Shown one piece after another: positions 13,540-17,307 of a stretch of 50,399 nucleotides of DNA (its first letter is position 1; each line of letters opens with the position of its first letter). The position numbers were made by a program, and so were the translations under genes. Under the pieces are notes generated by a model. The model was given only the letters and a program-made list of their open reading frames with translations, was not told the origin of the DNA and did not search any database. Source of the stretch: Planctomycetota bacterium (lineage in GTDB: Bacteria > Planctomycetota > Phycisphaerae > WQYP01); contig JAKBMM010000014.1 of NCBI GenBank assembly GCA_021831565.1, forward strand, positions 1 through 50,399, in the 5' to 3' direction.

Positions 13540-14289
13540 TCACGGATAATCCTGGCCGGTGGGACGAATCACCAATTCATTGATGTGTACGTGCGCCGGT
13601 TGCGAGACAATAAAACTCACGGCGCGGGCGACATCGGCGGGAGCGAGCGGGCGGCCGAACTTTTTCACCCACTTGGTAAAGTTCTCGGTGTTGTAGCCGG
13701 CCACGGCCTGAAATTCGCTTGCGACGATTCCCGGTTTGATCGTGGTCACACGAACTCCTTTATCGCATACCTCGCGCCGCATCGCTTCGGCGGCGGCGGC
13801 GAGCGCCCATTTGCTCGAACCGTAAAATCCGCTGAAGGGGGAAATGTGATGACCCGCGACCGAACCGAGAACGACAATGTCGCCGCGGCCCCGCTGGAGG
13901 AAAATCTCGCCGGCTTTGCGCATCAAATGCGCCGCTCCCATTACGTTGACCTGATACATGGCTTCCCATTGATTCCGATCGCTGGATAGCAGACCGCCGG
14001 CCAATCCGCGACCCGCGTTCACCACGACAATGGCAAGCCGATGATCCCAGGCAAGGGTTTTCTCCAGCAGCGCGTCGATCTGTCCGGCGTCGCCGGCGTC
14101 CGCCTGTACGGCCAACGCCGCTCCGCCGGCTTTTTCGATCTCGCCGACGAGATCATTCAATCGATCCAAGCGGCGGGCCGAAACCACCACGCGGGCGCCG
14201 TGCGCCGCAAGGTCTTGCGCAATCGCCCGCCCGATACCGGCGCTGGCGCCGGTGACGAGAGCCGTTTTGTCATTGAAAATCTGCATCAT
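13540..14289 (-). CDS. short-chain dehydrogenase/reductase
   Basis: A classical SDR of about 249 residues, an NAD(P)-dependent oxidoreductase of unknown substrate. Signatures in order: cofactor motif TGASAGIG at 13-20, NAG near 90, the catalytic Ser in VVLGSVAG, the YGSSK motif (catalytic Tyr and Lys) and KPGIVASEF after it. The substrate-binding part ends with a short, family-typical C-terminus. An in-frame TTG at 14358 would add 23 basic residues, but the conserved fold begins at the ATG pair at 14289/14286. Its 5' end overlaps the preceding gene by 20 nt, suggesting co-transcription. It ends 73 nt before rpsA. Confidence 0.85.
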   Translation of the reverse strand: MMQIFNDKTALVTGASAGIGRAIAQDLAAHGARVVVSARRLDRLNDLVGEIEKAGGAALAVQADAGDAGQIDALLEKTLAWDHRLAIVVVNAGRGLAGGLLSSDRNQWEAMYQVNVMGAAHLMRKAGEIFLQRGRGDIVVLGSVAGHHISPFSGFYGSSKWALAAAAEAMRREVCDKGVRVTTIKPGIVASEFQAVAGYNTENFTKWVKKFGRPLAPADVARAVSFIVSQPAHVHINELVIRPTGQDYP

Positions 14290-15055
14290 CACGGATGTTT
14301 GTAGGGTCGCGCCGATTCTCCTTCGCCTGCCAGGCTCGGGCGTACGGAAGGCCGACAAAGTTTCCGAAAACGAATCGCGAGTGGGGGTTCAAGGAACCCC
14401 GCAAGCGCCGCAACGCAGCGGCACTTTTTTTGAGCTGCTCGCCCATAGCGCCCAACATCGCCCGTACACGCGGCGGCTGCGAATCCACCACTTTAACCAA
14501 ACGCTCAAAACGCCCACGTTCGGAGAGCAGTTCCACGGTTCTGCGGACGGTTTCTTCCGGCGATAACTCGCTCGCCCCGCCGACATGCCTGAGAAAATCA
14601 AGAAATGCGGCGTCGATTTCGGAAAGGCTTGCCCGTGCTCCCGGTCGCCGGGGGTGGATTACGGCCGCGGGGCCGATGCCCTTGCCTGGCAAGCGCCTGG
14701 CGCCGGCGGCGATTTCGCTATTCCCGGCGTTTGGCGTCGTGAACCCCAGGAGATTTGCGGCGGTACACCCGGGTGGAAAAACAGCTTTTAGCCGTGCAGT
14801 AATCTTCTGGATCTCCGCGGGGTTCAGCTTGCCGCGGCCGACGGCGGTCTGCCGGCTATGGTAATAGACTCCCTTACTAACCCGATAGATCGCACCAGTT
14901 CGCGTGAGCCGCGATAATGCCTGGGCCACGGCGGTAAAGGGAAGTTCACGGAAATCTTCAAACTGCCACAGTCGGTCGCCGCCGCACTCAATGCGGCGGC
15001 GAACCAAGGCGGTAGTGCCGCGCGACGGGGAAAGTGAACGGGAGGATGCGACCAT
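14270..15055 (-). CDS. DUF6088 / AbiEi-antitoxin-like winged-helix protein
   Basis: 261 residues. The N-terminal half resembles the winged-helix part of AbiEi-type antitoxins and DUF6088 proteins: FRELPFTAVAQALSRLTRTG, then IYRVSKGVYYHSR, then a GRGKLNP turn. These proteins bind DNA and autoregulate in type IV toxin-antitoxin pairs; others are stand-alone. The rest is helical and basic (VRAMLGAMGEQLKKSAAALR). No AbiEii-like nucleotidyltransferase toxin is next to it. The downstream neighbour is an SDR whose start it overlaps. It may be a solitary regulator; the antitoxin reading is tentative. Confidence 0.55.
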   Translation of the reverse strand: MVASSRSLSPSRGTTALVRRRIECGGDRLWQFEDFRELPFTAVAQALSRLTRTGAIYRVSKGVYYHSRQTAVGRGKLNPAEIQKITARLKAVFPPGCTAANLLGFTTPNAGNSEIAAGARRLPGKGIGPAAVIHPRRPGARASLSEIDAAFLDFLRHVGGASELSPEETVRRTVELLSERGRFERLVKVVDSQPPRVRAMLGAMGEQLKKSAAALRRLRGSLNPHSRFVFGNFVGLPYARAWQAKENRRDPTNIRDDADFQ

Positions 15056-15183: not shown

Positions 15184-17085
15184 TCATTTGTTTTGAGCAA
15201 CGGCAATTTCAGATGTATCGTTTAATGGAGATGAAAATATTATATCCGTAGACGTCTCCTCCCGGCTTGCCCGCAGGCTCCGTCCCGGCGGTCGCGCCGC
15301 CCGGGCGGAATCCCGGCCGTTTTCCGCGTCCCGCGCCGCGTCCCCGGCGCGCCGGGGTTCGCCGCAAGCCGCGCCGGCGAGCGCCGCAGGCTCCGGCGCC
15401 ACTTGCAGAATGACCCGCAAGCGCCGCAAGGCGCGCTGCTCAATCTGCCGAACACGGGCTTTGGTGATTCCCATGCGTTCGGCGATCCGCGAGAGGCTCA
15501 TCGGTCCCTGCCCCGCCTCCAGGCCATAGTGAGCCGCCAGCAGATCGCGCTCGCGACGCGGCAGGCGAACCAGCGCGTCCGCCAGCCGGCCCTGGAGCAT
15601 CAGCATGTCGACGGCGTCGGGAATATTTGGATCCTCCGCGGCGCCGAGTTGATCCAGCAGAGAATCCTGGGCGAGGATGAACCGTGCCTCCTGTTGGCCG
15701 TTGGGTTGGCGCCGCTCGCCGGAGCGACGGGCGAAATTCTTCATCAGGACATAGGTCAGGTAGGTCGTGAACTTGACGCCGCGGGCGAAGTCATAGTTTT
15801 CCACGGCGCGCATCAGCCACAAGTTGCCATCGGAGATCAACTCGAAAAGATTCACGCCCGTGTGCTGGTGCCGCCGGGCCACGTGCACCACCACACGAAG
15901 GTGGGCCTGGAGGATCTCGTTGCGGATGGCGCCGGCGCGGGCGAGCAGGTCTTCAATCGCGGCCACCTCCTCGACCCGGGCGGTGTGCACGGCGAGCTGC
16001 GCCTGGAGCCGGCTGGCGCGGGCTTTGAGATAATTCATGCGGCGGAAAGCGTCACGCACCAGCGGGTACGGCAAAAGGGGCTGGCGGAACGCTTCGGCCA
16101 CATAGAGAGGCACGTTGGCGGGAACACGGCTCCAGATATCGTTGTTGGCGTCGGTCGGGGGCGGGACGGCGCTTTCGCGGGCGGCCTGTTCCGAGAGAAC
16201 ACGCAGAATGACATCTTCGGCGTCGGGCAGATCAAAAAGAGGGTTGGTGACAAAACGAATCGGCAGGTTCTTGACGCGTTGCGCCTTTTCCTGGCTGACC
16301 ACCCGATAAATGCTCGATCGCGTACGGCAATAACGGCGGGCCAGGCAATCGACCGAAATTCCACGGTCGAAACACTCCATGATGATGCGCCGGTCCTGCG
16401 CCGTCAGGGGAGTGGATGGTGCGGTGAAAATGGCGGATTCCGGATGACTCCGGTCATGGCGGCGAATGACGCACCGGATGGTTTGAGGACTGCGGTTCAT
16501 GCGCCGGGCGATTCGCCGGGAAATCTCCCGCAGGCAACAGCGGCAGTGCACGGCCAGCCGCGCGGCGCGCCGCAGTATCCGCTCTTTTTCTTCGTCGGTA
16601 AGCTGGCGGAAACGGGCGGAGCGATCAATTCGTTCGCGGTTACGCCGGCTGAAACGGACCACGTCGCCGGAAAGAAAACCCAGGCGCCGCAGACCATCCG
16701 GATAGCTGTAACGCATGGCGAGAAGTCCTTGCCGCCGCCAGCGCTGAATGGTTTTGCTCGACACGTTGAAGCGTTGCATAACCTCTTCGAGCGAAAGCAC
16801 TTCTTCCGGCGCTTCGCGCACGGAAATGTCCAGTGTGCCCGATATGCTTTCCACCAGGCAGGAGATGTCGGCCAATAACACACTTCCGGAAAGGCGATCA
16901 TCCGCCGCGGTGAGCGGTCGATGGCCGGTGATCCTATAAACGACAAACTCCCACGGATATTCTTCTTCCGGATCGATATCGGCCAGAAGCCGCCGGGCGC
17001 AGGCCAGTTGTTCCCGGCGCTTGCGCGCGGGTGTAAACGCCAACTGACGGGCGAATTCTTCCAGGCGGGAGTCAAGCCATGTCAT
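15184..17085 (-). CDS. sigma-70 family factor with multi-HTH N-terminus
   Basis: 633 residues. The last 240 are a sigma-70-type factor: region 2 at about 400-455 (GVNLFELISDGNLWLMRAVE, NYDFARGVKFTTYLTYVLMK) and region 4 at about 497-550 (LPRRERDLLAAHYGLE, then MSLSRIAERMGITKARVRQI, EQRALRRLR). No clear regions 1 or 3 are seen. The first 390 residues hold a MerR-like helix-turn-helix at 97-140 (LSLEEVMQRFNVSSKTIQRW) and two more HTH-like units (ISRRIARRMNRSPQTIR; LARRYCRTRSSIYRVV). AAGGAG lies 10 nt before the ATG at 17085, so this start is chosen over the in-frame ATG at 17109. It probably directs RNA polymerase to a special promoter set; targets are unknown. Confidence 0.85.
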   Translation of the reverse strand: MTWLDSRLEEFARQLAFTPARKRREQLACARRLLADIDPEEEYPWEFVVYRITGHRPLTAADDRLSGSVLLADISCLVESISGTLDISVREAPEEVLSLEEVMQRFNVSSKTIQRWRRQGLLAMRYSYPDGLRRLGFLSGDVVRFSRRNRERIDRSARFRQLTDEEKERILRRAARLAVHCRCCLREISRRIARRMNRSPQTIRCVIRRHDRSHPESAIFTAPSTPLTAQDRRIIMECFDRGISVDCLARRYCRTRSSIYRVVSQEKAQRVKNLPIRFVTNPLFDLPDAEDVILRVLSEQAARESAVPPPTDANNDIWSRVPANVPLYVAEAFRQPLLPYPLVRDAFRRMNYLKARASRLQAQLAVHTARVEEVAAIEDLLARAGAIRNEILQAHLRVVVHVARRHQHTGVNLFELISDGNLWLMRAVENYDFARGVKFTTYLTYVLMKNFARRSGERRQPNGQQEARFILAQDSLLDQLGAAEDPNIPDAVDMLMLQGRLADALVRLPRRERDLLAAHYGLEAGQGPMSLSRIAERMGITKARVRQIEQRALRRLRVILQVAPEPAALAGAACGEPRRAGDAARDAENGRDSARAARPPGRSLRASREETSTDIIFSSPLNDTSEIAVAQNK

Positions 17086-17307
17086 GGCCGGCAAACTCCT
17101 TGAACCCATATATTCTATCTCGGCCCGAAGGGATTGTGAAATGAAAAAATTGCCGCACCCGTATCGCCTCGCCTGCGCCAGGGGCGGCAGGCGTTCGAGC
17201 CGCCGTGTGATCCACCGCGCGCGGCTATTGTTGAGACATCTCCGTCTGCCATGGTGGAATCCCGCAATGCTTCAAACCTTGCCGCGTGCGGTATATCCGC
17301 GGGCGAT

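Follow-up and report, generated by a model that had tools for sequence, protein, structure and literature searches.

Bacterial promoter choice is normally divided between sigma factors and separate activators. The locus described here, in a window of 50,399 nucleotides of planctomycete DNA, raises the question of whether a single polypeptide can do both. The original prediction was of a sigma factor with three DNA-binding modules added at its N terminus, which could recognize an upstream operator and the promoter at once. If true, this would be a natural test of a sigma factor steered by its own operator-binding domain. Planctomycetes have an unusual cell biology, and their transcription is poorly understood.

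The gene and its two halves

We found that the gene lies where it was predicted and that it is read on the minus strand (Table 1). Between 15184 and 17085, the plus strand holds only stops and one spurious antisense ORF. We chose ATG 17085 as the start because the orthologue starts align there and AAGGAG lies 10 nt upstream; the same alignment and spacing led us to reject ATG 17109, the start of the mechanically called ORF. The antisense ORF opposite the gene (491 aa, 15403-16878, plus strand) is most likely an artifact of base composition.

Table 1. Positions of the HTH-sigma gene, its upstream elements, and its protein segments
Feature	Position	Strand	Basis and remarks
HTH-sigma fusion gene (P0001, 633 aa)	15184..17085	-	ATG 17085, stop codon end 15184; ORF calls and orthologue alignment
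Promoter-like TTTCAC-18-TAGAAT	17112..17141	-	Upstream of gene; common to congener L038 (alignment); consensus by eye
AAGGAG ribosome-binding site	17096-17101	-	Read from sequence
N0 domain, residues 1-85	16831..17085	-	AF2; helices 6-15 and 20-36 plus two strand-helix units
HTH1, residues 96-148, BldC/MerR-type winged HTH	16642..16800	-	Pfam HTH_17, BldC PDB profile, AF2
HTH2, residues 164-213, tri-helical	16447..16596	-	AF2 helices 164-181, 185-196, and 200-213
HTH3, residues 229-272, tri-helical, homeodomain/resolvase-like	16270..16401	-	Pfam HTH_23/HTH_38, PDB profiles, AF2
Linker, residues 273-325 (53 residues), HTH3 to sigma half	16111..16269	-	Poorly conserved
Sigma region 1.2-like segment, residues 326-366	15988..16110	-	SigA PDB profile alignment
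Sigma region 2, residues 380-455	15721..15948	-	Pfam Sigma70_r2, residue tables, SigA/RpoD profiles
Sigma region 4, residues 501-560	15406..15585	-	Pfam Sigma70_r4; 40/40 relatives
Inverted repeat CCTCATGGAATGAGG	Loci L049-L052 and L060 (genomes G002, G012, G017, and G020)		Conserved ~50-bp block; one mismatch in L060

The C-terminal half matched SigA/RpoD profiles with E values down to 1.6e-38, and the matches of the full-length model in Foldseek were all sigma factors. Two Pfam models scored above their curated cut-offs, Sigma70_r2 at residues 392-447 (40.3 bits) and Sigma70_r4 at residues 504-557 (52.9 bits; E, 2.5e-14). The SigA profile alignment reaches upstream of region 2 (profile positions 319-462), into the 1.2-like segment; region 1.2 had no Pfam match in P0001. 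There was also no Sigma70_r3 match in P0001, and residues 456-500, where groups 1 to 3 of the sigma-70 family have region 3 between regions 2 and 4, form a poorly conserved linker.

By our own alignment to E. coli sigma-70, P0001 keeps D419, N421, F439, and Y442, the equivalents of E. coli E407, N409, F427, and Y430. These include the core-binding and melting residues of region 2 by which sigma-70 membership is judged (E407, F427, and Y430). D or E at 419, N421, F439, and Y442 were nearly invariant in 37 sigma-intact relatives. On these residues, the best reading is that P0001 may still be able to act as a sigma factor in its source genome. The equivalents of W434 and Q437 in the HTH-sigma family are mostly A or V and K or R, respectively, which suggests altered −10 recognition; −10 specificity probably differs from that of SigA/RpoD.

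The predicted N-terminal extension is real, but it is ~325 residues long instead of ~390, because residues 326-366 already belong to the 1.2-like segment, and its HTHs are confined to residues 96-272. It begins with N0, which was absent from the earlier reading; residues 1-85 had no Pfam match, and conservation of N0 within the class was 2.2 bits/column.

A MerR-like HTH had been predicted at residues 97-140, and we found a MerR-type winged HTH there with somewhat wider limits (HTH1). Pfam HTH_17 matched at residues 96-125 (29.5 bits against a cut-off of 27), whereas the MerR Pfam models stayed under their own cut-offs on P0001. A profile of the N-terminal half searched against the PDB matched BldC (6amk; E, 2.4e-4; a second BldC match had an E of 1.6e-3). 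The AF2 model has a strand at 96-98, helices at 99-106 and 110-118, wing strands at 124-127 and 133-138, and a helix at 139-148. The turn and recognition helix of HTH1 rank 6th of the 286 conservation windows of the N-terminal half, and V108, K111, T112, R115, G120, and L121 are invariant or nearly so across relatives.

The assignment of HTH2 draws mainly on structure prediction and weak Pfam scores: HTH_29 matched P0001 weakly at residues 190-209 and was found in 23 of 40 relatives. The HTH modules are net positive, with a net charge of +10 for this predicted one. HTH3 matched HTH_23 at residues 228-264 (40.9 bits against a cut-off of 24.6; E, 1.6e-10) and HTH_38 at residues 227-264 (3e-8), and its PDB profile matches were the tandem-HTH protein 2lvs and Tn3 resolvase. 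The recognition helices of HTH1 and HTH2 are conserved; that of HTH3, at 85th of 286 windows, is not specially conserved. The linker that follows, at 1.87 bits/column, has a net charge of −4 and lower pLDDT at residues 301-320.

All three HTH folds appeared in AF2 models of both the full-length protein (pLDDT, 75; pTM, 0.52; 22-sequence alignment) and the N-terminal 315 residues (pLDDT, 86; 20 sequences), with the limit that a pTM of 0.52 does not predict the relative placement of domains. Structure prediction of the N-terminal region, which had been proposed as a check, thus found HTH folds and not their absence. Since Pfam, AF2, and the PDB profiles agree, the description of a sigma factor with three added N-terminal HTH modules holds. 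Among 40 same-class relatives, Pfam detected Sigma70_r4 in 40, HTH_23 in 38, and Sigma70_r2 and HTH_17 in 37 each. The N-terminal half as a whole had no significant structural relative in the PDB or in the viral library BFVD. We rejected the idea that HTH2 and HTH3 are a duplicated sigma region 4, since their profile similarity is weak (hhalign probability, 20%).

Distribution and decay of the sigma half

The N-terminal profile matched 139 of the 392 genomes of the phylum, 63 from the same class and 76 from other classes. The 63 came from 64 sampled genomes of the class, which we take to be Phycisphaerae, and G038 was the only same-class genome among the misses listed, which were apparently ordered by kinship. 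Matching genomes nearly always carried one copy. The original prediction therefore understated the case: the gene is present in nearly every genome of the class and is not an isolated oddity. A gene that is single copy and near-universal in Phycisphaerae, and often present in the rest of the phylum as well, makes a strong candidate core regulator. We infer that the matching families outside Phycisphaerae are Planctomycetia. One genome (G018; contigs C155 and C179, loci L042 and L045) had a second gene copy, 61% identical to the query and with stop codons in its reading, which comes either from a second strain or from a paralogue.

A search with the protein as the query found full-length relatives throughout the family and class, and in a genome-wide pattern scan the full-length relatives were all planctomycete. 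In three other phyla, those to which a verrucomicrobial, a gammaproteobacterial, and a bacteroidete genome belong, the N-terminal half matched 2 of 289, 2 of 299, and 0 of 198 genomes, respectively, and each match spanned only about one HTH. Within these samples (392 genomes of the phylum and three other phyla), the distribution search that had been suggested bore out the proposed restriction to planctomycetes. A phage or plasmid origin was rejected because the N-terminal half had no match in phage and plasmid collections. On a tree of 95 N-terminal sequences, each tested family except f75 fell as a whole on one side of a branch, and families that form single clades point to vertical descent.

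The sigma half has not been kept everywhere. Sub-domain scoring put region 2 near background or much reduced in f4, f18, f19, and f20, which belong to Phycisphaerae, and in the more distant f86; members of f18 and f86 also had no region 4. The gene and its N-terminal half were retained in all sampled genomes of these families. Among 37 such members, Pfam found Sigma70_r2 in only 2, HTH_17 in 25, and HTH_23 in 19; Sigma70_r4 was reported in 25, some of these being matches to the N-terminal HTHs (e.g., L119). The equivalents of E407, N409, and Y430 were lost in essentially all of them, and that of F427 was lost in f4 and most of f19, whereas f86 and most members of f18 retain it. By hhalign, the C-terminal halves of the decayed members remain homologues of the sigma half (probability, 97.9 to 99.8%), and thus the sigma half decayed and was not replaced. 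On the unrooted tree, parsimony requires four state changes.

The persistence of the HTHs where the sigma half has decayed argues that they are functional DNA-binding modules, and a DNA-binding half that outlives the sigma half makes it probable that these modules are central to what the protein does. Judging from the lost residues and regions, the homologues in f4, f18, f19, f20, and f86 probably work only as multi-HTH DNA-binding regulators, and these lineages are natural separation-of-function variants.

The reverse case was also found. One member of f55 (L165 in G095) lacks all three HTHs but retains N0 together with sigma regions 2 and 4, so the HTHs are not required everywhere for the sigma half to persist. 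Smaller losses were seen in L092, without HTH2, and L093, without part of HTH3.

These patterns bear on three alternatives. The protein might everywhere be a multi-HTH DNA-binding regulator whose sigma half merely tethers or holds RNA polymerase, with no true promoter melting. In its favor, the sigma half has repeatedly decayed or been cut short in families whose sampled genomes all retain the HTH half, and the N-terminal domains were carried through vertical descent. We nevertheless consider it unlikely, because the strict conservation of F439, Y442, and region 4 in the lineage of the window, in most of the class, and in the Planctomycetia-like families is hard to account for without sigma activity, and because the f55 member lost its HTHs and kept its sigma half.

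N0 and the HTHs might instead be an autoinhibitory or sensory extension that folds onto the sigma domains and is released by a signal, by analogy with ECF41, ECF42, and ECF238, which are sigma factors with regulatory extensions (PMC8999054). Such extensions are common on sigma factors (PMC8999054), and N0 is conserved and kept even in the HTH-less f55 member. However, the extension consists mostly of basic HTHs and contains a conserved recognition helix, which sets it apart from SnoaL, TPR, or anti-sigma extensions, and the HTHs persist where no working sigma is left to inhibit; we think this arrangement quite improbable.

We give very little credence to the third possibility, an ordinary alternative sigma factor in which the extra HTHs are leftovers or neutral decoration. 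The sigma half does score as a standard sigma-70, but the fusion is retained across the class and beyond, the HTH1 residues listed above hardly vary, and the HTHs survive decay of the sigma half.

Upstream DNA and a possible mode of action

In four of the five genomes of genus g2, we found the perfect inverted repeat CCTCATGGAATGAGG once per genome, each time ~140 bp upstream of the HTH-sigma orthologue and nowhere else. The repeat may serve as an autoregulatory operator or form an RNA hairpin, and it was not found in the genome of the window itself. In g120, which may be Rhodopirellula, a block of ~40 bp, TTTGACTAAAATTA-TTTACGTGTGAACTTTTT, is strongly conserved upstream of the gene (L098, L100, L103, L104, and L148). 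We found no operator common to all orthologues and rejected that idea; the conserved upstream blocks are genus-specific. Members of f11 have, by eye, an ordinary TTGACA/TATTAT-like promoter upstream.

No neighboring gene was conserved outside the genus; the upstream gene metH occurs there only in the window, L038, and L175. The downstream neighbor in the window (14270-15055, minus strand) had a weak AbiEi-type HTH match, below the cut-off.

We somewhat favor the reading that P0001 is a sigma-70-family factor with its own sequence-specific DNA-binding module, sigma and activator in one polypeptide. It would most likely use region 2 to bind core RNA polymerase. Bound next to or within the promoter, the N-terminal HTHs would select or stabilize the factor at a subset of promoters, and the family-specific N0 may sense or dimerize. 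DNA binding, core-polymerase binding, and their joint action on one promoter are all inferred from sequence and predicted structure.

Simultaneous contact with an operator and a promoter is plausible. In known holoenzymes, sigma 1.2 lies near the −10/discriminator end, away from −35, which makes attachment of the HTH module there awkward for contacting DNA upstream of −35. Because the module lies ahead of sigma 1.2, an upstream-operator geometry depends on the ~50-residue linker (273-325) spanning the distance. MerR proteins bind within the promoter spacer, and for P0001 binding within the spacer or downstream is as likely as upstream-operator binding.

A broader reading is that this is a planctomycete-specific global regulator in which sigma and activator are fused, near-universal in Phycisphaerae, widespread elsewhere in the phylum, and evolved in several lineages into a sigma-free multi-HTH regulator. 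We hold this reading tentatively and put it a little short of an even chance.

Comparison with known systems

As the original prediction supposed, no characterized member was found in the open-licence papers searched. No sigma factor of this architecture was found in those papers at all; prior notice elsewhere is possible. What is new, as far as we could find, is a combination of known parts that we could not find reported, together with an unusual evolutionary history. Reported domain combinations of cyanobacterial sigma factors include no HTH or MerR addition (PMC11119718). Rhodopirellula baltica RB12251, annotated as "RNA polymerase specialized sigma factor" (567 aa), is repressed by heat, cold, and salt (PMC2754498). 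Its orthology was unsupported: the gene lies ~33 kb from rpoA in four g120 genomes, whereas RB12251 and rpoA (RB12626) are 375 tags apart (~200 kb, from tag density).

The best NCBIfam match was MzaA of the MZA anti-phage system (NF041931; 4e-31), which is likewise a sigma factor greatly extended at its N terminus. We rejected membership, since the match covers the sigma part only and scores 108.5 bits against a cut-off of 800 (PADLOC, 62.8 bits).

For HTH3 and the HTH2-HTH3 pair, the best PDB matches were 2LVS, a tandem-HTH protein that binds CRISPR repeats, and the HTH of Tn3/gamma-delta resolvase. These matches are weak (Foldseek E, 0.16 to 0.5), and in contrast to the resolvases, the HTH-sigma protein has no recombinase domain. 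HTH1 resembles the MerR family in its winged fold and in its HTH_17 score above the cut-off. Unlike MerR proteins, P0001 has tri-helical HTHs after the winged HTH and no long coiled coil or effector domain. The Streptomyces MerR-like regulator BldC (6AMA and 6AMK; PMC5859096) likewise has the winged HTH of the MerR type and shows no evident coiled coil or effector domain. However, BldC, with 68 residues, is a free protein and multimerizes head to tail, and its family is defined by a stand-alone winged HTH bound head to tail on direct repeats, whereas HTH1 is part of a 633-residue fusion with two more HTHs.

With SigA/RpoD-type sigma-70 factors (PF04542 and PF04545), P0001 shares regions 2 and 4, a 1.2-like segment, and the core-contact and melting residues; it differs in having no region 3 and in the three HTHs carried on an additional ~325 N-terminal residues. 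Like other extended sigma factors (PMC8999054), it joins a sigma core to an extension thought to be regulatory. In contrast, most of those extensions lie at the C terminus and are sensor, TPR, or SnoaL domains, and that of P0001 is N-terminal and consists largely of DNA-binding domains.
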